Shown: in pieces, positions 5,665 through 61,260 of the stretch
Position numbering within the stretch: position 1 is the stretch's first letter
Layout: every line of letters begins with the position of its first letter
Origin: Branchiostoma floridae
Lineage: Eukaryota; Chordata; Leptocardii; Amphioxiformes; Branchiostomatidae
Length of the DNA stretch: 64,000 nucleotides
NCBI RefSeq assembly: GCF_000003815.2
Contig: NC_049984.1
Span: forward strand, 23,839,805 to 23,903,804
Direction: 5' to 3'
Notes under the pieces: generated by a model
What the model was told of the DNA's origin: nothing
What the model saw: only the letters and a program-made list of their open reading frames with translations
Databases searched by the model: none
Program-made: the position numbers and the translations under genes

Positions 5665-6240
5665 TGAGAGGCGTTCAATAAGTAATAACTCTGACCCACT
5701 TCCATGTTGTCTGATCTAAATGGAATTTTGCATGTGTAATGCTTCATATCTCTATAGTTTATGTTGCAAAAATGAGCTCTGAACTAATTGTGGTTTCTGA
5801 TTTACTGTTGTTTGAACTGAGTAAGGTGTGAAATGGACCAGGTGTGAAATGGAGCCAGTTGAGTGTCGCACAGTGATCCGGTTTTTGTATTTGAAAGGAC
5901 GCACACCAAAGGTGACTTTTGATGAAATGAAAGAAACTTATGGTGATGATGCCCCATATGACCTTGTAAAACGCTGGCATCCTGAATTCAAACATGGCCG
6001 GAAGTCTGTGGAAACAGCTCCCAGACCTGGTCGTCCCTCTTCTGCCATTGATCAGGCATCTGTTGGAGGACCAACCTGGGGTGTCCTACAAAAACGGAGT
6101 CCAGAGCTGCATCAAACGATGGGAGAAATGCATAACTCTGGGTGGTACCTGTGAAGAGAAAGACTAATAACTGTGCCAAGTTTCATTAATATCCTGCTAT
6201 GGAAAATGAGTCAGAGTTATTGCTTATTGAACGCCCCTCG
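5665..6240 (+). mobile_element. Mariner-type element, internally deleted
   Basis: 576 bp with terminal inverted repeats (TGAGAGGCGTTCAATAAGTA / TTGCTTATTGAACGCCCCTC) and TA on both sides (5663-5664 and 6241-6242), the mariner target site. Inside is a remnant frame (about 5849-6050, +). It has the N-terminal helix-turn-helix region of mariner/SETMAR transposases: a MEPVECRTVIRFLYLKG-type start, then DLVKRW and GRKSVETAPRPGRPSS. The catalytic DDD domain is absent, so the copy cannot be autonomous. Confidence 0.88.
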
Positions 6241-14220: not shown

Positions 14221-14445
14221 ATAGACTTGTACCATAATGATTTGGACCATTTTTTTTTCTTTTCAGAAAGACACTACAGGCAACAGTCAGCACCAGAGCC
14301 TTGGAGAACATTTCAGCACTTCTGGCGTAGCAGAATTATCCAAAAACACAAATCCAAAAGCTACTGCAAATCTTACTGAGTTTCATTGAAAATTACATAT
14401 TCTTACTCACTTTTGAGAGAAAAAAAGTTTTACATCGATATCGCT

Positions 14446-17391
14446 ATGGCGGCTAAGTCCAAACGGTATTTGCGCAGGCGCGGAAGCAACGAGATCACCT
14501 ACGAGCACGTTCACGGTGACCCTGACCTTGAAATCAAGGTCGAATCCCGGACCTTCAAGGTCCACAAGGTCGTCCTCATCCACACCTGTGGCTACTTCGA
14601 CGCCATGTTGGAATGCGGGATGAGAGAAAGCCTCGAAAACTACGTAGACCTACAAGGCTTTGACGCAGATGCTTTTGAAATCATCCTAGACTTTTTGTAT
14701 TCTCCCGAACCTGTGGTCATAGACGAGAATTTAGACTACATTTTAGAGTTGGCTAACTTCCTACAAGTCCATCCACTGTTACAGTACATGAAGGGAAAGG
14801 TGAACAAGGGAAACTGCATACATCTGTACATCCTCGCCGATGCCTATAATGCCATAGAACTCAAAGAAGTAGCAGGGGACATCATCAGTAGAAACTATTA
14901 CAAGTTCCTGCGCACTGAGGACTTCAAGCGGTTGTTGCCGGAACAGCAGGATGAGGTACTGCAAGGGAGGTTTAGAAACCGTCGGAAGTATCTTGGTGCA
15001 ATCAACAACGGATACGTGTTCTGGCCAGAGCCGGGACCTAGGGAACTTATGAAGTATGACGAAAAGAAGGTGAGGCTGTTTTTTTTTTTCATTATGTTTC
15101 TTTTCTTTTAAGCTTTATTGAAAAGTAACAACATTTACATACAGTGTGACATTTACATGTACAGCTTCATGACTACATTTCGACTACAAAAAATGACAGT
15201 GTTTTCTCATTGCGTTTACTATATAAAACCTACATGAATATAATAAGGGTTCACTTAATATCAAAGCATACTGTGTACATATCATGGTCCTTCTGTGTGT
15301 GGAAATATTTCTGGACAGAATATTTGTGTCTTACTGTTTTTACCTTACATGATGTTTCGTTTTTACTCCGTGAAGGAGGGGGTCACTTCCCGGCGGAGTA
15401 TTATAGTTGCCCGGCATATTCTGCTGTTCGCAGCTGTATCTCACGACAATTTTCTACATTCGTATGTAGTTTGGCATGTCGTCAGTCCGTATGTGCTAGT
15501 AGATGATGCACGTTGTTTTTGTACTGTAGCTGTTTGTATGGGTAATGTAATATTTTAGAAATCACAGCTATTTTTATGGAATTGTGGAACAGGCCGTCGA
15601 TGTCTTTGGCTTGCTTGAGTCAGCGCTCCAAAAATAGTAGACATGTTTAGAATCAAAAAGAAAAATCTTTGATCAAAACTCGATTTTTAATGGCAAAGTT
15701 CGTAGTAAGCGCAGAACGGCTGAAAAGGGCCTAAATCTTATGAGATATTGGGTTGTGTGTTGTTCTAGCACCCTTTGTCTAAAGGCCTGTCTGCTTTTAA
15801 TGTCAAGTGTGTGTGAATTTTCTTTTATGTCAAGCTTAAGTGTGTGTAGAAGTTTTCTTATTTCTCTTCCCTGTGATTCCTCTAGTCTTCTACCTAACGT
15901 TTCTGATTTTCAAAACGCGCTGTCACTAAATATGCAAAGTGACGATCACAATGATTTGAATTTTGGTGGACATTCATAAAAGGCTTTATACTAAGATAGC
16001 TATGCCTCGAAATTTCATTTATGCTCCTTAGTTTTCTGGATGAGGCCAGGAACTTATTGATCACCCCTCATCGTCATCTCAGGTCACCCGTCAAAAAATG
16101 TGAAAAATGAATTTAAAAATTTCACCAAAATCGAGCTCAAATGTCAAAAACAATATTTTCTACAGATAACAGGCATATATTGTGCAGTATTTAACCTTAG
16201 AGGGGTGAAATGCACTCCTGAAGATGGCATACGAATGTCTGCAATACAGCCTATATAGTGCAATGCCCAGCTGCCACCACCTGCAGTCTCGTTTTGGTGC
16301 CATGACCCCGGATGACCCCGGAAATCCAACATGGCCACCATAACTGGAATTAACTCTATTGTAAGAGGCGAGTAGAAACTGTCTCCTGGTTCCCGGGATT
16401 CGAAAGATCACAAATCCAACGCGCTAAACTGCCCCCCTTCCTTGACATGGTCAGTTTTGCACTTTAATACTTCACTTCATACACAGACTCGAGTACAGAA
16501 ATACGATGTTTGTAATGTTTTCTGTCTTTCTTTGTTTCGTATGTGTGAAATTTTGCTTGTGTACTTCTTTCCCGTGTATAGGATACCTGGACTACGTTTG
16601 CCTCCAAACCCGACGACACTCCAAGTCGCGGTTTCGCCGTAGCCGCTCTACACAACTACATCTACATCGCAGGCGGCCACGGCAAGCCTCGCTCCGGGCA
16701 CGCTTCGGGGCTGGGAGACCCTCAACTCACAGTGTACACCTACAACCCTCTCAACGCAGAATGGGCCGAGGTGTGCTCCTTGGGCGAGGCTAGGGCCTTC
16801 TTCGGCTTCGTCGAATATAAAGGACGCCTTTACGCAATCGGAGGCTTTCATTTTGACTACGGCGTACAAAGCGTTGAGAGGTACGACCCTATGCAGGACA
16901 AGTGGACATTTCTAGAACCGCTGCCAAATTTCGCTACGGACTACGGAATGGGTGTGGTCTGCAAAGACGACATCTACATAAGTTCTGAAGATTTCGACAC
17001 GTCCACGTTTTCTCTGTTGAAATACAGCCCGGTGTGGGACGAATGGGACGTGGTGTCCGAGTTACCCCGGGAACGAGACCGCCATTGCATGGCTTCTGTG
17101 AATGACGTCATCTACATCCTAGGTGGGCACGTTCCCGGGGTGGACTGTTACAACGTCAGTACCCAGCAATGGTTCGTCTTAGAAGAACATCCGGCTACAG
17201 AATCTATCTCTTACGACAAAGGTTGCGGTGTTAAAGACGGAGTTATCTACGTCTTGAATCACGAAGATACAGTAAGCTACCTAACGGATTCGGAGACATG
17301 GGTCCAGGGCCTAGCACCCTTCCCTGGGGGATTTTATCTGTCCATGGCATTCGAAGTTTACTTGCCAGAAAAAAACGACGCTTGTAAGTAA
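14446..17391 (+). CDS. BTB-Kelch protein, two coding exons
   Basis: Probable cullin-3 substrate adaptor, 477 aa. Exons are 14446-15069 and 16582-17391. The junction is phase 0: GAAAAGAAG|gtgagg to a T-rich tract, tatag|GATACCTGG. Exon 1 gives a BTB/POZ domain (residues about 25-130; FKVHKVVLIHTCGYFDAML is the signature) and a short BACK-like segment (CIHLYILADAYNAIELKEV). Exon 2 gives about five kelch blades (IYIAGG, LYAIGGFH, VIYILGG, each followed by Y-[DN]-P and W). The start was chosen at 14446 because GCTATGGCG is a good initiation context; an in-frame ATG also lies at 14386. A TTTTCTTTTCAG acceptor at about 14266 suggests a 5' UTR exon. The last codons (TGT AAG TAA) overlap a perfect GTAAGT donor, so an alternative C-terminus is possible. 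The BACK segment is short for KLHL proteins. Orthologue not assigned. Confidence 0.9.
15070..16581 (+). other. Intron of the BTB-Kelch gene
   Basis: GT-AG intron of about 1.5 kb, starting in a long T run. I see no element or nested gene in it. Confidence 0.75.
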
Positions 17392-21272: not shown

Positions 21273-24200
21273 CTACGTGCCGCTCTCGGTTGTGAACCAA
21301 AGCTGGCCAACTCTGCATAGGTCACCCCGGGTACGTCCACATACTCGTTACTCTGTAATAAAACGATAGGAAATGAATTAGTTCTGTGTCATATGCCAAA
21401 AAGTAGTTACTCAAGCAACTGGATATGGTTTTTGGAAATATCGGATTCTAGAAATATTGGACAGCTAAAATTGTCTTCATTCTTATATAGATAGGGCAAA
21501 AAAGACCAGTTTCTCCCAGAGACTTCAGTGTCAATGACGAAAACTGGTAGATTCCAGTTGAAACGTCTGACCATTTCCAAAACCACATCCAGTTGCTTGA
21601 GTAACTACTTTTTGCCGTATCTTATTACCTGGATGTCTAACCAACATCAAAGTTCTGTGTCATGTTTTTCAAAAGCAAACAGCTATCGTAGCCATGTTTA
21701 GATCTCAAAGTACATGTATAGTTACATACATTGAAATTTCACCATTAATTATTTTCAACATAGTAGTCAATACACTATCACTTGCACTATTACCACCTTC
21801 CAATTCTGTACCTGTATCTGTATCTATATAGCCAGTATAACCGCCGTTTGGTGTAACACGCCAGCTTCGCAGGCACACGGCGCGGCAGCAGCTGGTTATA
21901 TTACACTGAAGGACCCGTCACACCTAACTTCTGCACATCTATCTGTATAAAGCGTTCTTATGTTAATTAGGATATTAAGTCTTATTCTATACACCTATTT
22001 TGTACTTTGCGTAACAGTCGTTGCCATACATTGCACCATGTACAAATGTCGAGCAATAAAGATCATCTTTAAAGCTACTAAAAATGCCCCTACTGTACTT
22101 CCAGTACTAAAATTTCACTCTACGATAGTTCTGGGAAAGTACAATTTTTTGAACACATCAATCCTAGGTTGGTGACTCTGGTACTTGTAGGCATGACTCA
22201 AATTGGTAGCATGGAAGATGCAAGCATTTCTAGCTTTCCTCAAATCTTTCTGTGGCTTTCATAGCCGACAAGAAGAATGCAGTTTGAGACCACCGTCAGT
22301 CGACTTGATATCCCAAAATACCCTGGTGTTAAATGCAACAGATAAAGGTTACCTCGAGAATAAAGGTGAACTAGCGTTACATCTTGTTTTTATTAAACAG
22401 GGTATTTAGGGATATCAGGTCAATGGACGTGGCAATATTTTGAAAATACTCTACATAATAAAGATAATATTGCAGTTTGAACCACCATCCGTCTATTTGA
22501 TATCCCTAAATGCCCATGGCGGATTTAGGTTACCCCACGGATAAAGGGGAATGTTTTACAATAAATGCAGCAGTGTCTGTCCAAGGTGCTGAAATTGTTA
22601 GCAACTGAGATGCCATCAGGTACTTTAAATGCAGAAACTTTCGCGGTGGTTTAATGTTCGCAGTTTTCACGGTGGCCGCTTCATCGCAAACCTAAAACCA
22701 CCATGGACATTTTTCTATGGCAGTAAGCGACTACAGTGCATGGTGCTACAGCGAACTTAAAACCACAGCGAAAAGTCCTTTTTCCAGCTGCCACGAAATT
22801 AAATTCCCTTCAAACATAAATGCTTTTACAGTACTCAGCAATATACTCAGATAGGTCAGTATTAAGTTAAGGGATTACGACATGGTCTTTCATAAGGCCA
22901 TTTTAATTTGCTTATATGGATGACATTTGCACATGTATAAATTCTTGGCCGTTTTCAAAAATAGCGTTCAACTATACTGTAAGGGGTTGACCCGCTGAAC
23001 AGAGCTGCATGGAAGCAAAGTGTGAAGTATAGCCAACTGCTGCCTACCCGTGTCAGGGACCCCACCAGCAGTATAATCAAACCATGAGTGAGTGAGTAAT
23101 ACAAAGCAGCTGCAAAATGAGCAAATACTGTAAATGCGGGGATTTAATTTCACGGTAACACCAAAGACTGTAGTCTAATACCATGATAGAAAAATGTTTG
23201 CGGTGGTTTTAAGTTCGCGGTGAAGTGGTCACCACAAAAACCGCAAACATTAATCCACCGCAAACATTTCTGCATTTACAGTACCTGCCATACATGTAAA
23301 TCTACTGATTGGCATACCATACTCTGTGTAAGATTTTAAAAAAAAAAAGTTATCAAATTAGTGTGGCCTCTTATGATTTTGATAGTTGTACTTGTAGTAT
23401 TCATTATTTGACTATACTGCTGCTGGGGTCCCTGACACGGGTAGGCAGCAGTCGGATAGTCTTCACACCTCGTTTCCATGCGGCTCTGTCCAGTGGGTCC
23501 ACCCCTGTTAGACCGCACACCTTGATGTCCCTCCTAACACACTCCAATCAAGTTTTTCTTGGTCTACCACAATCCCCGTTGCCTGACAATCGATTTTTCA
23601 CAGTTGAAGTTCGAATACTTACCGTGGCTTGTGGCTGCCTGGGCACGGCCTCGTTGCCCTTCGCTCGCAACATGTGAGCTCTCACGCGGTCCACGTGTTG
23701 GAAGATCTGCTGCGGTACGCTGGATTTGAAGGTGAACGTGCCCTCGCCTGACGCACACCTACTGCCTGCTTCTAGGGTGAAGTCTGTCTTACTCCGGCCG
23801 TACCGACGGATCATTTTGTACGGCCAATCGTACACAAGCTGTTCTGTTGTACTGTTCAGGAGGACGATGCCCTCCGAGCATACTTGAAGCATGTAGTCGC
23901 CCTTGAGCTTACAGCGCTTTGATGCGTCCGTAGGAATGACGGTGACTTTTGTCCGCATTAGAAACACTTTCTTCCGCAGGTTATCCGCCGCAAGGAATAC
24001 ATCGTTGGGGCAGGGCGTACGGAAGGCAAAGTCTCCCTCCCCTGATGCGCACTTTCTCCCGCACTCAAACAGAAACGCGGTCGTGTTTCGTCCGTACCTG
24101 CGAATGTGTCGGAACGGCCACAGGTACAGCACGTGGTCAGTCTGCGGATCGAGCAATGACAGACCGATGGCGGAGACTTTGAGAACAAATCGGCCTTCGA

Positions 24201-27200
24201 GACCGCAATGTTCAGAGCCTTGGGTCGGAATGATGATGATTGGGAAGTACATGGTAGAATCGTCATCACCTGCATAAAATGCACAAAATGCGGGATGAGG
24301 AAGGGAATTTTAGACTACGTAACAATTGACTCCTATGTGCAGAATCGGGAAATATGGAGCGAGAGGGCGAAATAAAAATAAAAATGAAAATTGTAAAATG
24401 GTTGGGGTAAAGGTAACGACTAATCCAAAACATAAAGAAAAAAAGTTTTCAGCTTGAAAAAAGTACAAAAACACTATTATTGTACAGTAACAGCACCTGT
24501 ACCCACACTTTAAGGAGCTTATAATATAAAGGCCAATTTGCTACACCAGAAAGTTGGTGAATGGCTTCATTAATGGTGAAAATTTGCTGAGTAGTAATTT
24601 TCATTTTTATTTTTTTTTCCAAAAAATAGGAGTGAGCGAATCCGTGAACCAAGAAATTAAATTGATGTGGCCTTAGATAGGACAGGCAGCGTTTTTACTT
24701 CAACTGGAAGCTATGTGACTCAACTGTGTACACTAAAACACACCAAGTAACTTTCTAGCGAGGAAAGGTCAACGCCAATTACTACGGTGTGAATAGCCCG
24801 AAGGAGTGGCGGGCCATTCTCACCCTGTCTATGATGTAAATGTCATAAACACGCACCAAGCAGGTACTGTGCGGGAGGATAACCAAGGACGTTACTACTA
24901 ACGTCCTTGATATAACCTCCTTGTTCTATTTATAACGGTTTAAAAAGTTTACTTGATGACCAAAAGGTGAAGAGAGTTCTTGAAATGATGGACCTGCAAC
25001 AATTTTTGTCTCGTATTATCACGCGCTCTATCACTTCAGTTGTATTAGCACGCCTATACACATAGTAATGTATCTTGGCGTAGTGGATTAACGAGTAGTC
25101 TTTTTAACTTATGGTCTCAGGTTCGAATCCACGTTGGTGTGCTTTCTTTTTTTTCGATAATATTTCACTATTTATCACTTATACAATCGTTCATATTGAA
25201 ATTTTGCTTTCATAAGGGTTTGCTTCTTGTGTTCATTTCATAATAACCTTCTTGATACTATCCATTTGCGCTATTACAGTGTGTGTTTATTGAAATATAT
25301 TGGAGTGATACTGGTAGTTTATTGGTGAAACATTACAGATCTGGCGGTGTGGTTTACAAACATGTATTCGCAACTCGTCTGTGAAAAGGAAACAAATGAA
25401 AGAGAGACCTTTCAGACAATCCGAGTTAAATGGGCACAATATACAGTCTTCAGATTTCTAGCGAGGACACGATCCCTTCACATGCGAAGTACCCAAAATG
25501 TCGAAAATTGAACGTAAAAGAATCATGGTACGCAGTTCTAACTCAGTACAAGTAAGAATGTGGCTTTATTGCATTAGGAAATATAACGCTCGACTCCAAA
25601 TAACTAGCAAACTATTGAAAGAAAAAGGTCGACGAAAAATCGTTAATTAATAGACTAGGTATAGAATAGAATAGGTATGAACTATTCATCCCTGTCCCTT
25701 GCGTGCCACTAGACCAGTACGTGGTAATTGGGTACTTTGCATGTGAAGGGATCGTGTCCTCGCTAGAAATCTACTGGTCGTGTTTTAGAAGCGCCCCCCC
25801 CCCCCCAAAAAAAATGGCTAGTGTTGGCAGGTTTTTCTAGAGTACGGGAAACAGGAGCCCAAAGAAACTTTAATACATATACTGTCCTATGTGTCGCTAG
25901 GCACAACAAGGATACGAACAAACCTGACAAACACCCATACAGCCCCATAAAGGCTACGAGACTAAACCTAACCTCTTCTGATGTTTGGTGGCTGCTGGAT
26001 GACTGGTTTGGGTGACCTGCTCTGGGGTCTGTTCACCACTGTGTTCTCCTTCAGAACTGGATAGAGCAGGGGACAGGCCAAACCTTGGGGGTCCGTTCTG
26101 TAAGACTCCATCAGATCAGCGAGAGTTGGGTACAGTCTGTTCACATGACCCTGGAAAAGTGGTATTAAAAATGAAATTTATAATATTAGTCTGACTTTAA
26201 ACAGTGCTGGTGGTGAAACCTGTTCAAAATCTGTTGGGACCACGGGGTGCCTAGCCTCCATTGCAGGCTCTCTATGGCCTTTTTTGGCACTTTTGCTGGC
26301 CATTTGAAAATTTCAAAATTCCTTGCATGAATGATGTAGTCTTCAAAAATCAATTTATATTGCTTCAGTAAATTTTACATACTATTAGACTTTAAAGGTT
26401 ACCGCAAAAACCATGTCTGACCATAAAACCACTACAAAAATTCATGCATTTACAGTACCTGAAATAATTAATGGCATATTTATAGTCAGATTGACATGAT
26501 AAAAAAGCCCATAACAATTATGGCCTAACTTATTTACCAAGAACACAAAACCACCGCAAAAATTCATGCATTATTTACAGTACCTGAAATAATCCATGGC
26601 ATATTTATTGTCTGATTGACATGATAAAAAAGCCAATAATGATTATGGCCCAATTGTTTACAACCCAAACATGGATACAGTTTTAGTAGATAAGGCCACA
26701 ACAATTTAATTTCTTGGTTCACGGATTCGCTCGCTCCTATTTTTTGGAAATAAAAATAAAAATTACCACTCAGCAAATTTTCACCATTAACGAGACCGTT
26801 CACCAACTTTCTGGGGTAGCAAATTGGCCTTTATATCATAAGCTCCTTAAAGTGTGGGTACAGGTGCTGTTACTGTACAATAATAGTGTTTTTGTACTTT
26901 TTTCAAGCTGAAAACTTTTTTTCTTTATGTTTTGGATTAGTCGTTACCTTTACCCCAACCATTTTACAATTTTTATTTTCATTTTTATTTCGCCCTTTCG
27001 CTCCATATTTTTTATGAAAAAATCCGTGAACCAAGAAATTAAATTGGTGTGGCCTAAGTATCCGCATTTCTAACCTGGATCTGTAGATAACCGTTGCCCG
27101 TTGGCAGGATACGATACTGCCTCACGCGACCTTCGTCCCTGGAAAGCATACAAAGGTCATCACATGATGAACAAATGTTGGGCCATGTTAATTCGATCAT

Positions 27201-36300: not shown

Positions 36301-39300
36301 TCAGCGGTTTCGAACCTGTTACCTGTTTGGGTCAAACGCCTTACCGATTGCGCCACACGACGCCACAATAATAGTTATGTACAGAGAATTCTGTTATTCG
36401 AAGTGTCTTTAATTATTTTTTACATACCAAGAGATTGATGATGACGATGTTCATGAGGAAGATGAAGAAGACCAGGAGGACCAGGGTGACACCAGAGTGC
36501 TTCTGCCTGTCCAGGAAGAACTGGATGTTGAGTTCCCCCATCACCATCCCCAGGGTGGTGAAGAACGAAGACGAGAAGGAGTGGAATCCAGAAAAGTCCT
36601 ACATCAAAGAGATTCGTAAATAACTTCATCAAGTTGGCAATTATTCATATAGTAAGGTTCTTTATGTACAACCAAGGAGTACTTACTTCCAATTCAGACG
36701 CCATCGTCGGGGTAGAATAACTGGAAACTACTTCTTGCTGCTACTTATAGCCGATCCAATAACAAGTAGAGAACAAATCAGCGGTCACCGACCACATCAA
36801 CAGAAACAATTGTGTAATAGACTGGGAGGGGGCTGGAGTCATCCACAGAGAGGAAAACAGAAGAACACGCTGGATAAAGGATGCTGTCTGGATCAGAAAA
36901 TCAGCTCCAGTCATGAACAGAGACGAGGGGGGATACAAGCTGAGCCACGTTTGGGACGGCATTCTTGCTGCTGCAGCGCCACCTACATCGGCTATAAGTA
37001 GCAACAAGAGGCAGTTTCCAGTCATTCTACCATGATGATGGTGCCTGATAGACATCGAAACGTTGGAAGTAATACTCCTTGGTTGTGCCTAAAGAACCTT
37101 ACTATATCAAAGAGATTGATTGTCATTTGCAATTGCTCGAATTATTATCTCAAATACCTCGTACTTTGTGACTTTGATAAGACCTCCAATATCATTAAGA
37201 TTGAAATTAGTGCCCACCGTCAAGAAAACGAAAAAAAGGGCGAAATATAAAGCTATTTGTGTCGGAGAGGATTTGTAAATATTGCCCCTCTAAAGCAGTG
37301 GAAGACTGCCCATCTAGCTGTTCATTTTTTTTTTATAAGAGACTTTTCTAACTCCACACAGATTTACAAAGGGCATCTGATTTTGGAAGTGGAGGTAAAA
37401 GTTGATGGGCTCCACCTTCCAATAATGTACCCTAGATACGGCGGAGAACAATCCATATGGCCCTCATACCCCTGTCACATTATTCACGATCTTCGGGCGT
37501 ATCGATGGAAGATCGGCCATATTTTAGATCGAGAGAGGGTTGCGCGTATTTTTCACCTAAAAAACTATCCCTGTCACATTAAAGCCATACTTTGTAGCTA
37601 GTACAATTGTTGTGCAATAAAGTTGTTATTATAAGCGAGGCTCGGGCGATTGCTGCAGAATCGTCGTCAAATGTGACAGGGGTATAACGACATTAAATAC
37701 ATGTAGTCTATGGAACTACCTTTACCTTCTGTCTGTCCTTTGTATATGGCACTGTTAATATGTTACTTACCAAGTTGAGTGCAGTGCCACATTGTCCTTG
37801 TCTTGTCTTGAAGCAAAAAAAAAGGATTATCAAGAAAAATACATACTTGAACTAGTTTAACTAATATCTAACACAAAAGTTGGACGCAATGGATTCAAAC
37901 ATTGGACTTTTAATATCTCAACAGAGACGGTGGGCGCCATAGACTTCCTGCAACTTATGATCCACTGCTCACTGAGTCACGTGTTCTAGCTGCATAACGT
38001 GACGTCACGACAGCAGTGGATTGTTTATTCCTTGAAAAAGCCTGGTGTTTGTCAGTCGAAAATTTGTCTCCAAGTTTTGTGTTGGATATTACAGTTCAAA
38101 CTAGTTTAAGGATGACTTCTACCAACACATGTGATGAACTTTCAAGTTAAGAAATAAATACAAATACTAGGCCTGGGTATCGGTACAGCGTACCGGTACA
38201 AAACCGGTTTTTCTTATTGGACCGGTCCAGAAAAAACGGACCTGAAAAAATTGGGTGGACCGAATGTTGGACCGATTGGAAATTTAACAGATTATTTTAT
38301 AAGGCATTCAAACGTTTTGGCGCTTGCAGGTGGAAAAAAATAACAAGAGTGAAGTAGAGTAGAGTTTATAATAATTTCTACCAAGTTTTACAGCCAATCG
38401 TACAGGTGCAGCTAGCGTTGTAGGATTTTAAAACGCCAGTGTAAGTCTAATACACCACCAAACAGATTTCTTTCTAGTGAAATGGACCATTGGCATGAGT
38501 CATACTGAAACAGGTCCAGGTTCAGGTCCGGACCTGGACCTGATCCTTTGGACCTGAACCGGACCTGGACCTGAATTTTCTGTACCGGTACCCAGCCCTA
38601 ACAAATACATACTGTTGAGTCTGGCAAGTCAGCCTTCGATGCGATGTAGTAGAAACACGTGGTGAAGGCCAGTGTGTAGAGAAGGAACACCAGAATCACC
38701 CTCCTCAGGGACTTAAAGATCCTCCCAATCAGCAAGATGTAGATGTAGACATCAGTCTCAAACACCGGCACCCTTGGTGGAACAGTTTAGTTTGTATAAA
38801 TGTTATAATTTGTATAAATGTTATAATTTGTATAAATGTTATAATTTGTATAAATATTATAATTTGTATAAATGTTATAATTTGTATAAATGTTATAATT
38901 TGTATAAATGTTATAATTTGTATAAATGTTATAATTTGTATAAATGTTATAATTTGTATAAATGTTATAATTTGTATAAATGTTATAATTTGTATAAATG
39001 TTATAATTTGTATAAATGTTATAATTTGTATAAATGTTATAATTTGTATAAATGTTATAATTTGTATAAATGTTATAATTTGTATAAATGTTATAATTTG
39101 TATAAATGTTATAATTTGCTTAAATTGTATAATTTGTATAAATCGTATAAAAATTGTTTTAAAAAATTACCCTCGTTATGATATCTAATTTGATTTGATT
39201 TGATTTATTAGAATTGCAACAGTACAATACTCGTGGATCACAGGCAGCAGTAGGCTGGTTTTGTGATCCTCACATCAATACGTATACATACAATACATGT

Positions 39301-50449: not shown

Positions 50450-53400
50450 TATGTGAAAGCATTTTAACGATACAAGTATACGAGTGTGATATATAGTAAA
50501 TATGAGAATCATGGAACTTACACAACGTCACCCTGAAGGTCGGCTGCGGCCTTCAGGATCACTTGTAGGATTTGCAGAGAGCACTGCGCTGCCTGTGCCA
50601 GCCGCCAGGGGGACACGTGATCTGCATCTTCCGCGTAGATGTCCGCATCCCTCTCCAACTGCGGACAGTGTCACAAAAAAATTAAGCGTTAGGACAGTAA
50701 TTTTTGACTCAATAAACTAGTAGTAAGAAACACAACCAAAATAGTACTCACTTCCAACGTTTCGGTGTCTATCAGACGCCATCATCATGGTAGAATTGCT
50801 GGATCTACTTCTCACTGCTACATATAGCCGATGTAGGTGGCGCTGCAGCAGTAAGAATGCCGTCCCAAACGTGACTCAGTTTGTATCCCCTCTCATCTCT
50901 CTTCAAAACCGAAAGTGAGTACTACTTTGGTTGTGGTTCAAGAACCTTATATATTGAGTATTTAACAACCTGATGAAACTATTTACAGAAGTGATTTTTT
51001 GTTGTCTTAGAATCCAAAGGTTCTGGGTACAAATCCCTAGCAGGCTCCAATGTTGTGCCCTTTAGTAAAGGCACTTAAACCTATATTTACTCACTCGAAG
51101 TCGGATAAGGCGAAAATGAGTGCCCGGCTTTGGCTAGGGACGTCCCTCGGATAGCACGTTAAATGGAGGTCCCATGTTTGCGGAGGGACACACCTCGGGC
51201 ATGTAAAAGAACCCACCACACTTATCGAAAAGAGTACGGTTTTTGTCCTGGTATGAGCGGATCAAATAAATCTGTCCGGATATACAGCGTGTACTGTTCA
51301 GTACAAATCTGGTGTGTCACGCCATGAAGCGGTTTACCTTGTATATGCAATACAAACAAACAAGGTTATCAAAAGATCTAAATTGAGATATCGTACTACT
51401 TATAGTACTAGTGCTACCGTTAAGGTGGTATCTCACTGCACTTTGGGCACCGGCGCGGCAATGCTGGGTTCTTTCACTACGGCACTGTTGTGTCATTTCC
51501 GCCGATTTTTATAATTTAGATATTGCGTAATACGTAAAAGTATGACTTAGAAGACAACAAAATACACAAAACGTAAGAAAATTCTGTTCTTTATCTCTGA
51601 AATTCGTTGAGTATAATCATTCGAACCCCGCAGTGTACCCTGGGAGCCAGACAAAACCGGGTAGCTAGCGAGTTTTGTTCGGGGAGCCAAGGCAGTCAGC
51701 TCGCCGATCTCACATTAGCGCTCCGGGGAGTTTAAGCCCGAAAAGGGCAGGTGGACCTAATCGGGCTTGAACTCTCCGGGGCGCTAATAGGAGATTGGCG
51801 GGCCTGACTGTCTTGGCCCACCGAATAAACTGTCCTAGCTGCCCGATTCCGGCTGACCCCCAGGGTACCCGCAGTGCCGCACCGGTGCCCAAGTGTAGTG
51901 AGATACCACCTTTATCAATCTGCACGCCTACCAGAAGTTTGACTACGGAGATGTCGTTGTTGATAACTGCCAGGTGTAAGGGTGTGGAGTTCCCATCTCC
52001 ACGTGCGTTCACATCCACTCCCGGCTCATTCAACAGCGTCTACATAAACACATCAACAACTAGAAAGGCAACATTTGTTTTTTTTTTAATTCAGAATATT
52101 TTCCCTCTAACTTTGTGGAAAGCTACTCGCATGCAATAATAAAGCATCAGGCTCAACTAAATGTAGTGTGTGCGAGTGAAAAAAGAATTGGGGCCATGAA
52201 TCGGGGTATCTGAGTAGCCTGACGTGAAAGCCAGCTCAGGTAGCCAGCTCAGGTAGCCAGGCCTGGTGTACAGTCCTGCCTTTTCCGTAAACTTTTTCTG
52301 TAGCAAAAACAATATGTTTTCTACTTCGGGAAAGCATAAATATAACAGTTACTCAAGCAACTTGACAAATTTGGAAACGGTCAGACGTTTCAGACAGCAT
52401 TGACAACCTTTAAACAGGTATATTTAACCCAAATTTTTGGATTGAGACGTCAGACGGTCTTCCGGTGACGGCAACTTTAAGGTAGTTCAATAGAAGACGG
52501 AGTCAGATCAAGGTTGCATGCTAGTCTTGCGTATCTCACTACTAAGAGCTTATCGTATTTTCTAATGCCTAAACATCTCTTTTGAACAACTAAAATGTCA
52601 ACGTCTAGATGTGACCAATTGCTGACGACACGTATCCGCAAGATCGAGTAAAGCTAGGGGCACAACCGGCCGTACTTGCAAGTGCGTGCTGTCTACGTGC
52701 CAAAACGTGGGCAATCTTTTGGTATCCGTAAGTGGAAAGTACCGTCTCCGTACGAACACGTGGCGAATCACACGGATTTGGGAGCACGCAGACGCGCCGT
52801 AGAAATTTAAGTGCATGCAGAACTTTCTCTGCGTTCGGGCTGCGGGTTTGAGGCAGCCGCTAGGACGTCTGGAGGCAGCCGCTAGGACCTTGAAAGGTCG
52901 TCCTATATGAACATCTCCGAAAAACTTACGTTCATCGCACTTGCACGCACTTACACCATGCGAGTGAGTGAGGAAACCGTACGTAAGCAGCACGTGTAAG
53001 TAGGGCCTGCATACGTTAACGTGGCACTCGCACAGAGACCGTACGTTGTACGCACGTGCAACTCACCTACCACTTGCGCAACGAACGATGAACGCAACCG
53101 CTCTCCGCCAGGCGTGGCGTGCAGACCACGTACTTACACCTTGCGCAACCGTGCGAGTGACGTACTCCCTCCCTGCTCTTGCCAGTCGTTCCCCACGTTT
53201 TCAGGAATACGTGGCGGACGTGGCCTCCACAAAAAACGTACGGACAAATTGCACGTACGGCGGGTTGTGCCCCAGGCTTAACTCTCGCGAGTTTACGTTC
53301 TGAAATATTGGTCATCAGTATTGATCCTGAATAAGGTGACATTGGTCGTTGAAAATGTGATCCGTGTATACCTTTGTGTTGGAAGAAAGTTTAGCATAAT

Positions 53401-58473: not shown

Positions 58474-59308
58474 CTAACACTCCGCCAACCTGGCCTCGAG
58501 TTGAGCTTTCAGCTGTTGCAGAGTTCCAAGCAGATGTTGGAAGAAGGCGAAGTCTCGAACATGGTGCCAGTAAAGGCTACCCCCCACGTCCGGGAGGGGA
58601 ATAGGCTCGCCTGTCCAGTCCTGATCCCCGAACTCCCCAGCCGCCCTCAACTAGCAAAACGGAGAGAAACGAAATATTTCGATCAACGAAAAATAGCATG
58701 TTCATGATTAAAGATTGGAAGTTCTGTTGCAGTACCAAGGAAGCAGCCAGGGGGGGGGGACCTTATCAGGCTAGCATCACGTGGTTTCTTACCGTAATGC
58801 TTAGCTTGATCAGCAACTTGTTCAGTTCGCTACCGGTGTCGTGCATCGACTGCCGCAAGGTGTCGCTGTAGTCGTCCAGATCTTGTGCTTCCAGGATGAC
58901 GTTTGGGATAGTCTGCTCGAAACTGCTGAGGTTACGGAACAGTGCAACCAGACCCCTGTCCTCCTGGATAATGTATGATATTTCATTTTAAACATTTCAT
59001 ACATCAGTGTATGTGTATTTGTGCGTTGTGTGTACTTGACTTGTGGTTTGACTGGTTCACGCTATAAAACGCAGCAACCACAGAATTTCCCTCAGGAAGT
59101 TGACAGACTGTTACCGAAACGTCTGTGAAAATAAAGCTGCGGTTGTGTATTAAAAAAGAGTCATTCAGTGACATGTCAAACTGAGGAAACTATTCACGGA
59201 TGTGTATGTGTGTGTGTGTGTGTGTGTGTTTGTATCTGTTTATGTGTGTATGCATGTGTGCCCGTGAGTGTGTGCAATGCACACGCGTGTGTGAATTGAA
59301 TGGGAGGA

Positions 59309-59359
<51 letters not shown>

Positions 59360-61139
59360 AAGAGAGAGAGAGAGAGAGAAAGGAGAAAGAGAGAGAAAAA
59401 AAATAGCAACAAAAATCTTTTCACTTATAAATGCATGGTAAAGTCACTCACCTCGAAATCAGAGCGTAGAGACCAATTTTTAGACATGAAAACCTCCTGT
59501 TTCTGTAAAAAAATGCAAGAAGTGTTGTGGCAAACAATGTTACTATGAAATAACATCTTCTGGCAAAGATCACTGCATACATGTACCAAATATCATGGAA
59601 ATCCGTCGTTCCTTTGTTCCGTTATTCTCCTTGGATGATTTTGACAAAATAGCCCTGCAGCTTTAGAGCAAACTGCTAGGGGACCCAAACACGCATCACG
59701 TCTTCCTTATACCCCTGTCACATTATCCACGATCTTCGGGCGTATCGATGGAAGATCGGCCATATTTAAGATCGACAGATGGTTGCACGTATTTTTGCCT
59801 GAAAACCGTCCCTGTCACATATAAACCATACTTTCTACCTTGTACAATTGGCTCGGGCGATTGCCGCAGAATCGTCGTCCGATCGATTTTCGCCAAATGT
59901 GACAGGGGTATTACAACACAAGCTATTTGTCATTAAAAAGACCATGGCATGTCCAGGTCAAAAGATACAGAAAACGGACGTTCTGCTGCAGTACCAAGGT
60001 CAAATACTAGGGGGGTTCAAAATCGACCTTGACTTTCATCTTTCCAACACCTGCCCACCTACCGAATATCATCGTAATTTGTCAAGAAGTTCTGGAGTTA
60101 CGTTGACTACAAAATTCTGGAAAGACAGAAAGACACACCCAAAACAATATCTCCATCTTTCACTTGGGCCTAATCTTACTACAACCTGTCAATTGTGTCA
60201 AGAAACAAACCCACAACATTCAAGCTACCTACCATGTACCGTGGATGTTACGCTATGTTGTAACAGATGCTTACCATCATTGTCAGAGTGTCGTTGGTCC
60301 GTTGGATGGTTTTTGCCGTCAGCTGAAGGTCTTTCCTGAACCCCCTTCTCTCACAAGGACTGTAGGGGTTCATGTGAGCGTAGTGCACGAAGCGAGGCTG
60401 TCGGTCCATCGGTCGAGAGTCCCCGACCGGAAATGCGGAGACAGCCCGGACAACCGCCACCACGAGCAGCGTCCATGATAGTAGTAGAGGTACTGTCGAC
60501 CAATGAAACGGAGAGTCAATGTCATGCAGTTATGTAGCTTATAGTTTTGCTCAGTTCAAGACCATGTTAACCGCTTACTAGCGCTCACTGTAGCAGCGTC
60601 TCTTCTCCCTAAAGTGGTGTCTCACTGGTGCGGCACTGCGCGGGGTTCGAAAGATTACTCAACGGATTTCAGAGATAAAGAACGAATTCTCTTACGTTGT
60701 GTGTATTTTGTTGTCTTCCAAATCTTACTTTTACGCATTACGCAATATCTGAATTATGAAAAAATCTGCGAAAATGACACAACAGTCCCGCAGTGAACGA
60801 ACCCCGCAGTGCCGCACCGGTGCAGTGAGATACCACCTTAAATGTGGTGTCTCACTGGACTTGGGCCACCGATGCGGCACTACGCGGGGTTCGAAAGATC
60901 ACTCATCGGATTTCAGAGATAAAGAACGAATTGTCGTACGTTTTGTGTATTTTGTTGTCTGCTAAGTCTTACTTTTACGTAAATCTTACTTTTACGTAAA
61001 TCTGCAAAAATAACACAACAGTACCGCAACGAACGAACCCCTCACCGGTGCCCCAAGTGCAGTGAGATATAACCTTAAGTCAGAAACATTTCATTGGCAA
61101 AATGGACAACATATTCTCACCTGTGTGTTGAGAAGACAT
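58474..61139 (-). CDS. Secreted four-helix cytokine candidate, IL-6-like gene plan
   Basis: Predicted secreted ligand, 211 aa. Minus-strand exons: 61139-61121, 60492-60275, 59502-59452, 58963-58793, 58650-58474, lengths 19/218/51/171/177 nt, intron phases 1-0-0-0; all donors and acceptors are canonical. The signal peptide (PLLLSWTLLVVAVVRAVSA, likely cut after Ala26) spans exons 1-2. Amphipathic helices are predicted at about 57-95 (A), 99-125 (B), 126-155 (C) and 178-209 (D, VRDFAFFQHLLGTLQQLKAQ), with a long C-D loop holding DWTGEPIPLPDVGG. There are three N-glycosylation sequons (Asn73, 88, 107) and only two mature cysteines (53, 211). Size, helix layout, 19-nt first coding exon and phases agree with IL-6/G-CSF genes as I recall them. 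Sequence identity is too low to assign a subfamily by eye. Alternative: another secreted helical protein. Gene structure is more certain than family. Confidence 0.75.
59195..59402. repeat. (GT)n and (GA)n microsatellites
   Basis: TGTGTGTATGTGTGTGTGTG at about 59200-59280 is followed by AGAGAGAGAGAGAGAGAG to about 59398. It lies in the cytokine-like gene's intron 3, about 50 bp below the donor of exon 59502-59452. Confidence 0.92.
59709..59912. mobile_element. MITE, ATACCCCTGTCACATT family, copy 4
   Basis: ATACCCCTGTCACATTATCC to AAATGTGACAGGGGTAT, in intron 2 of the cytokine-like gene. Confidence 0.78.
59913..60274 (-). other. Intron 2 remainder of the cytokine-like gene
   Basis: Contains a reverse-oriented, decayed copy of the GGCCCCCTAGCGGCTT-type repeat (CTGCTGCAGTACCAAGGTCA, AAATACTAGGGGGGTTCAAA, CCACCTACCGAATATCATCG). 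No exon signal. Confidence 0.5.
60609..60840. mobile_element. MITE, TTAAGGTGGTATCTCACTGC family (intron 1, first)
   Basis: CTAAAGTGGTGTCTCACTGG...TGCGGCACTGCGCGGGGTTC to CGCAGTGCCGCACCGGTGCA...GTGAGATACCACCTTA. Confidence 0.75.
60841..61078. mobile_element. MITE, TTAAGGTGGTATCTCACTGC family (intron 1, second)
   Basis: AATGTGGTGTCTCACTGGAC...GATGCGGCACTACGCGGGGT to CACCGGTGCCCCAAGTGCAG...TGAGATATAACCTTAA. It abuts the previous copy head to tail. Together they fill about three quarters of intron 1 of the cytokine-like gene. Confidence 0.75.
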
Positions 61140-61254: not shown

Positions 61255-61260
61255 TTTATA
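61255..61260 (-). promoter_or_regulatory. TATA box of the cytokine-like gene
   Basis: TATAAA on the minus strand in the context CTTCTATAAATTTGAC, 115 nt upstream of the ATG. That implies a transcript start near 61228 and a 5' UTR of about 90 nt. An AP-1-like TGACTAA lies about 30 nt further upstream (minus strand, about 61286-61292), and TGACGTC lies near 61380. No direct evidence of use. Confidence 0.5.

Follow-up and report, generated by a model that had tools for sequence, protein, structure and literature searches.

Do invertebrate chordates possess secreted ligands comparable with the long-chain class I cytokines of vertebrates? This question is raised by a five-exon gene of the lancelet Branchiostoma floridae, located in a stretch of 64,000 nucleotides (nt) on contig NC_049984.1 (positions 23,839,805–23,903,804) that was analyzed as a whole and is hereafter referred to as the window. 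Class I cytokine receptors, JAK, and STAT have been reported outside vertebrates, whereas most of their ligands have not. Two papers report genes resembling class I cytokine receptors in amphioxus (PMC9010856; PMC13203501), and the latter, a 2026 survey, detected IL-6 only in vertebrates (PMC13203501). The window gene is one of at least seven paralogs, and it is likely that this family represents early-chordate secreted long-chain class I helical cytokines; the window protein itself is probably a signaling protein akin to the helical hormones and cytokines of vertebrates. A seven-gene family with a conserved structure would provide concrete candidate ligands for the above receptors and a foothold on the time of origin of the long-chain cytokine gene. 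No earlier description of the family was found among the papers listed in the literature searches, which covered titles and the openings of abstracts, with subscription journals mostly outside their coverage.

Structure of the Window Gene

Five minus-strand exons between positions 58474 and 61139 are spliced into 636 nt encoding 211 residues without an internal stop, and the four introns are each bounded by GT..AG, with phases 1-0-0-0. The coding exons are as follows.

61121..61139, minus strand: coding exon 1, 19 nt, carrying the start codon and followed by the phase-1 intron 1
60275..60492, minus strand: coding exon 2, with the signal peptide, Cys53, helix A, and the conserved N73 sequon
59452..59502, minus strand: coding exon 3, the AB segment, 17 residues in the window gene and 17–27 across the family
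58793..58963, minus strand: coding exon 4, with helices B and C
58474..58650, minus strand: coding exon 5, with the CD loop, helix D, the terminal Cys211, and the stop codon TAG

An initial sequence-only reading had proposed these five exons together with their splice sites, frame, and stop, and the joining of the exons, the GT..AG borders, and the intron phases bear this out. The two cysteines and three N-glycosylation sequons that it had counted are likewise found, at residues 53 and 211 and at residues 73, 88, and 107, respectively. Its signal peptide agrees with our own judgment of the peptide and its cleavage, which was made by eye and not with a predictor, and a hydrophobic N-terminal stretch is present in all seven family members. 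Judged from the sequence, the five-exon gene is a real gene. Part of intron 1 (60621–61071) and part of intron 2 (59701–59921) match many places in the genome, in the manner of dispersed repeats.

A Family of Seven Genes

The genome searched comprises 513 Mb in 431 contigs, among which the contig of the window is designated C6. An nka primer designed on the Florida lancelet, which may cross a splice junction, has no site in this genome at 2 or fewer mismatches. A protein search of this genome revealed at least six further family genes at 43–88% identity, the values for the six proteins relative to the window protein being 88, 51, 50, 56, 43, and 44%. The second C6 copy (C6b) lies approximately 5 kb beyond the 5′ end of the window gene (C6a) in the opposite, divergent orientation, and five more members are spread over three other large contigs, with C4 and C15 carrying two each and C12 a single one. 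Searches with the window, C15, and C12 queries, which represent different branches, return the same seven genes. Weak matches on C11 and C14, read in all frames, were judged by eye not to be family members, as was a weak match on C13, in the latter case from the matched stretch only.

All seven gene models comprise five coding exons with intron phases 1-0-0-0, a first coding exon of 19 nt, and a fourth coding exon of 171 nt, while exon 3 ranges from 51 to 81 nt; the predicted proteins consist of 208–223 residues, each with a hydrophobic N-terminus. Exon 1 of C6b and of C12 was placed by alignment, and the donor-score scan listed neither. The structure of the window gene is considered more than a chance arrangement because a divergent copy adjoins it, five further members exist, and the intron phases are kept in seven of seven, and it is virtually certain that the seven genes are a genuine family encoding secreted proteins. 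The donor of intron 1 in C6b (L010 1298) is weak-looking, GTAAAAAA, and this first intron may splice poorly.

The ratio of nonsynonymous to synonymous substitution (dN/dS), calculated by the Nei–Gojobori method, is 0.33–0.57 over the 21 family pairs. The synonymous excess has a p value of 5e-10 for C6a/C12 and 0.002 for C4a/C4b, is marginal for C6a/C6b (p 0.04), and is not significant for C15a/C15b (p 0.07). Exons of the C6 pair are 84–100% alike, compared with 62–83% for its introns, which show many gaps; several of the introns of the C15 pair and of the C4 pair, by contrast, match each other as closely as the exons do. The seven-gene family is thus under coding constraint.

Predicted Helices and Conserved Residues

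Helices B, C, and D were predicted from exons folded singly, and helix A from amphipathicity only. Exon 4 alone is modeled by AlphaFold2 as two helices (residues 2–25 and 29–56) separated by a three-residue turn, with a mean predicted local distance difference test score (pLDDT) of 74.7, and exon 5 alone (58 residues) as a loop followed by a 36-residue helix (residues 22–57), with block pLDDT values of 98, 99, and 96 over residues 31–58. Furthermore, the family-averaged amphipathicity at 100 degrees was compared with that of shuffled sequences, giving p values of 0.005 for helix A and 0.012 for helix B, a borderline value of 0.054 for helix C, and a nonsignificant value of 0.27 for helix D. 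The four amphipathic helices proposed earlier are therefore upheld in part: A and B by amphipathicity, C marginally, and D not by that measure, with B, C, and D each given by the single-exon models. The resulting order along the gene is helix A in exon 2, the AB segment in exon 3, helices B and C with their short turn in exon 4, and the CD loop and helix D in exon 5. Such a partition by exon (A, AB, B plus C, D) is typical of long-chain class I cytokine genes, the introns of which have phases 1-0-0-0 in vertebrates; human IL6 begins its coding region with an exon of 19 nt.

Two cysteines are invariant in the seven members: Cys53, preceding helix A, and the equivalent of Cys211, which is the final residue in five members and, in the C4 pair, lies three residues short of the C-terminus. 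The N73 sequon is present in seven of seven, whereas the N88 sequon is found in one of seven and neither N88 nor N107 is conserved in the family. Compared with the window gene, each member of the C15 pair (L036, L037) carries three extra cysteines, two of them just before the first conserved cysteine and one in helix D.

Promoter Elements

Upstream of the window gene, two elements were located.

61255..61260, minus strand: TATAAA element, lying 121 bases upstream of the start codon
61284..61290, minus strand: TGACTAA, candidate AP-1-like site beside the TATA element, a sequence match only

TATAAA occurs 107–121 bases upstream of the start codon in all seven genes, and TGACTAA occurs at −138 to −151 in four of the seven. 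NF-kB-like sites were not found upstream of the seven genes, and STAT-like sites, present in three of them, are not conserved. The TATA element and the fast evolution of the protein suggest that the signal is inducible and either immune or hormonal in nature.

Affiliation of the Family

Reports on IL-6 (PMC5165036), G-CSF (PMC6389648), and prolactin (PMC12347873) give each of these genes five exons and four introns. The intron phases, the 19-nt first exon, and the 171-nt fourth exon, each kept in seven of seven, support the reading of the family as long-chain class I cytokines, and the exon partition, the coding constraint, the invariant Cys53, Cys211, and N73, and the universal TATAAA element were also counted in its favor. 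The description of the protein as secreted and helical, with a gene laid out like those of long-chain class I cytokines, is what sequence comparison and modeling predict and is well supported. What weighs against cytokine kinship is that no homology to a known long-chain class I cytokine was detectable. Pfam gives no match for the window protein and only weak matches, to three unrelated families, for the seven members, and sequence searches yielded no convincing PDB or Pfam match for the family. The receptor model PF09240 likewise has no match over the cut-off in the genome, in a search that runs exon by exon and is weak. In semi-global comparisons with 14 cytokines and five decoys, one decoy outscores all 14 cytokines. 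The power of such searches is low, since known members also miss each other: in control searches, CNTF and LIF do not list each other, IL-6 lists neither of them, EPO reaches TPO only at an E value of 0.49, and G-CSF reaches IL-6 only at 0.33, although GH finds prolactin at 8e-17.

That the family comprises secreted helical proteins specific to lancelets and unrelated to cytokines, with a convergent gene layout, would agree with the lack of any sequence match to a cytokine and with the high-scoring decoy; however, the phase pattern, the tiny first exon, and the exon/helix partition agree jointly in seven of seven, and the controls show that kin are often missed in the same search, GH and prolactin excepted, so this explanation is considered improbable. 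A class II helical cytokine of the IL-10/interferon kind is highly improbable. Class II cytokine genes have phase-0 introns, as opposed to the phase-1 intron 1 after 19 nt in all seven genes; moreover, in the single-exon models a short turn separates helices B and C, which share an exon, and D forms a single long helix, and no Pfam cytokine match was obtained. In favor of class II are the secreted helical nature and similar size of the protein, together with the five exons and four introns of fish type I interferon genes, as given in one report (PMC5127012).

Two further explanations are narrower forms of the long-chain class I reading. Membership in the IL-6/gp130 group, with a gp130-like receptor, is rather unlikely, albeit with several points in its favor: a first coding exon of 19 nt that ends in phase 1, like that of human IL6; the highest Z values among the 14 cytokines, obtained for OSM (2.39) and LIF (2.37); and an aromatic residue, identified by eye in seven of seven, at the start of helix D. 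The FxxK motif, also visible in their sequences, marks this position in CNTF, LIF, OSM, and CLCF1 and there provides the phenylalanine, but its lysine is absent by eye in all seven lancelet proteins. Relative to the known helix limits of these cytokines, the best local profile alignment joins equivalent helices in four cases (helix B for IL-6 and LIF, helix C for G-CSF, and helix A for CNTF) but not for EPO or GH. None of these alignments is significant, the score being reached by 2 of 100 shuffles for LIF, 7 for G-CSF, 36 for EPO, 45 for GH, 74 for IL-6, and 76 for CNTF. Furthermore, CNTF has a Z of −1.00, the IL-6 cysteines have no counterpart in the family, and the Pfam IL6 model (PF00489) has no match over the cut-off in the genome. 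Hence, of the earlier proposal of a lancelet IL-6-type cytokine, the secreted helical protein and its long-chain class I layout are retained, and IL-6-group membership is not supported by the sequences.

An EPO/TPO-, GH-, or leptin-like hormone, possibly kin of amphioxus GHl, is unlikely as well. A cysteine before helix A and another at or near the C-terminus recall EPO (residues 7 and 161 of 166); nevertheless, neither EPO (Z −0.15) nor GH (Z −0.37) scores above chance in the semi-global comparisons, in which TPO has a Z of 0.69, and Pfam Hormone_1 has no match over the cut-off. GHl, described as a divergent type-I helical cytokine (PMC9010856), has 208 residues, a size within the range of the family, and the string RRGF, encoded in one frame of GHl primer P19, also occurs in five of the seven members. 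However, the window offers nothing close to the GHl primer sites (8 mismatches at best), the genome has no match at 3 or fewer mismatches, and the primers mismatch the seven coding sequences at at least 8 of 25 and at least 9 of 23 positions. Because these sites were not found, the family genes are not considered to be GHl as primed, although the primers were designed for another species, B. japonicum.

Proposed Mode of Action

On the long-chain class I cytokine reading, removal of the signal peptide would leave a mature protein of approximately 184 residues, which would fold as an up-up-down-down four-helix bundle in which the AB and CD segments are long and the BC turn is short. The bundle would be pinned by a Cys53–Cys211 disulfide and glycosylated at N73. 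Binding of this protein to a class I cytokine receptor, either gp130/Domeless-like or GHR-like, would then elicit JAK/STAT signaling, and the protein may thereby act as an inducible immune or hormonal signal. As to the subfamily (IL-6, EPO/TPO, GH, or leptin), the lancelet family may predate those divisions. The fuller proposition, that it goes back to a time when the IL-6, EPO, GH, and leptin groups had not yet diverged, provides ligands for lancelet gp130/GHR-like receptors, and has a five-exon gene older than vertebrates, is regarded as evenly balanced.

Other Features of the Window

Elsewhere in the window, the following features were observed.

14380–15108 and 16582–17388, plus strand: BTB/BACK domains and Kelch repeats, together resembling a KLHL-type gene
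23551–24309, minus strand: IRS-type PTB domain matched by two segments of a single open frame, Pfam E value 9e-45
51713–52039, minus strand: coding stretch with ankyrin repeats
5825–6151, plus strand: open frame that weakly matches a Mos1-type transposase helix-turn-helix, scoring slightly below the Pfam cut-off
38791–39143: tandem array of an 18-base-pair unit, 19.6 copies with 97% matches, open in several frames

Comparison With Known Systems

Among invertebrate systems, amphioxus GHl, a divergent lancelet type-I helical cytokine (PMC9010856), resembles the family in size and in its probable class; the comparison was made via primer sites, and its published quantitative polymerase chain reaction primer sites (B. 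japonicum) were found in neither the window, the genome, nor the seven coding sequences. Drosophila Unpaired proteins, likened here by description only, are secreted in an invertebrate and act as ligands for a receptor of the gp130-like kind (PMC7378365).

Among vertebrate cytokines, IL-6 has four cysteines (residues 44, 50, 73, and 83 of 184), none of which is matched in the family. The 19-nt first coding exon is shared with IL6, and the aromatic residue at the FxxK phenylalanine, seen by eye, with LIF, CNTF, OSM, and CLCF1, the motif lysine being found in none of the seven. EPO has cysteines before helix A and after helix D, like Cys53 and Cys211, and the cysteine layout of the family, as read from the sequences, is nearer to that of EPO than to that of IL-6; two more EPO cysteines, 29 and 33, have no equivalent among the two invariant ones. 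The N73 sequon lies within helix A or at its end, as does N24 of EPO, which is glycosylated; the scores of EPO and TPO against the family are those given above. With the long-chain class I cytokines in general (IL-6, G-CSF, prolactin, GH, and EPO), the family has no detectable sequence similarity, and its helices are predicted here from single exons and, for helix A, from amphipathicity; it is nonetheless like them in secretion, in a predicted mature length of approximately 184 residues, in five coding exons, in the short B–C turn, in the phases 1-0-0-0, and in the partition of helices by exon.
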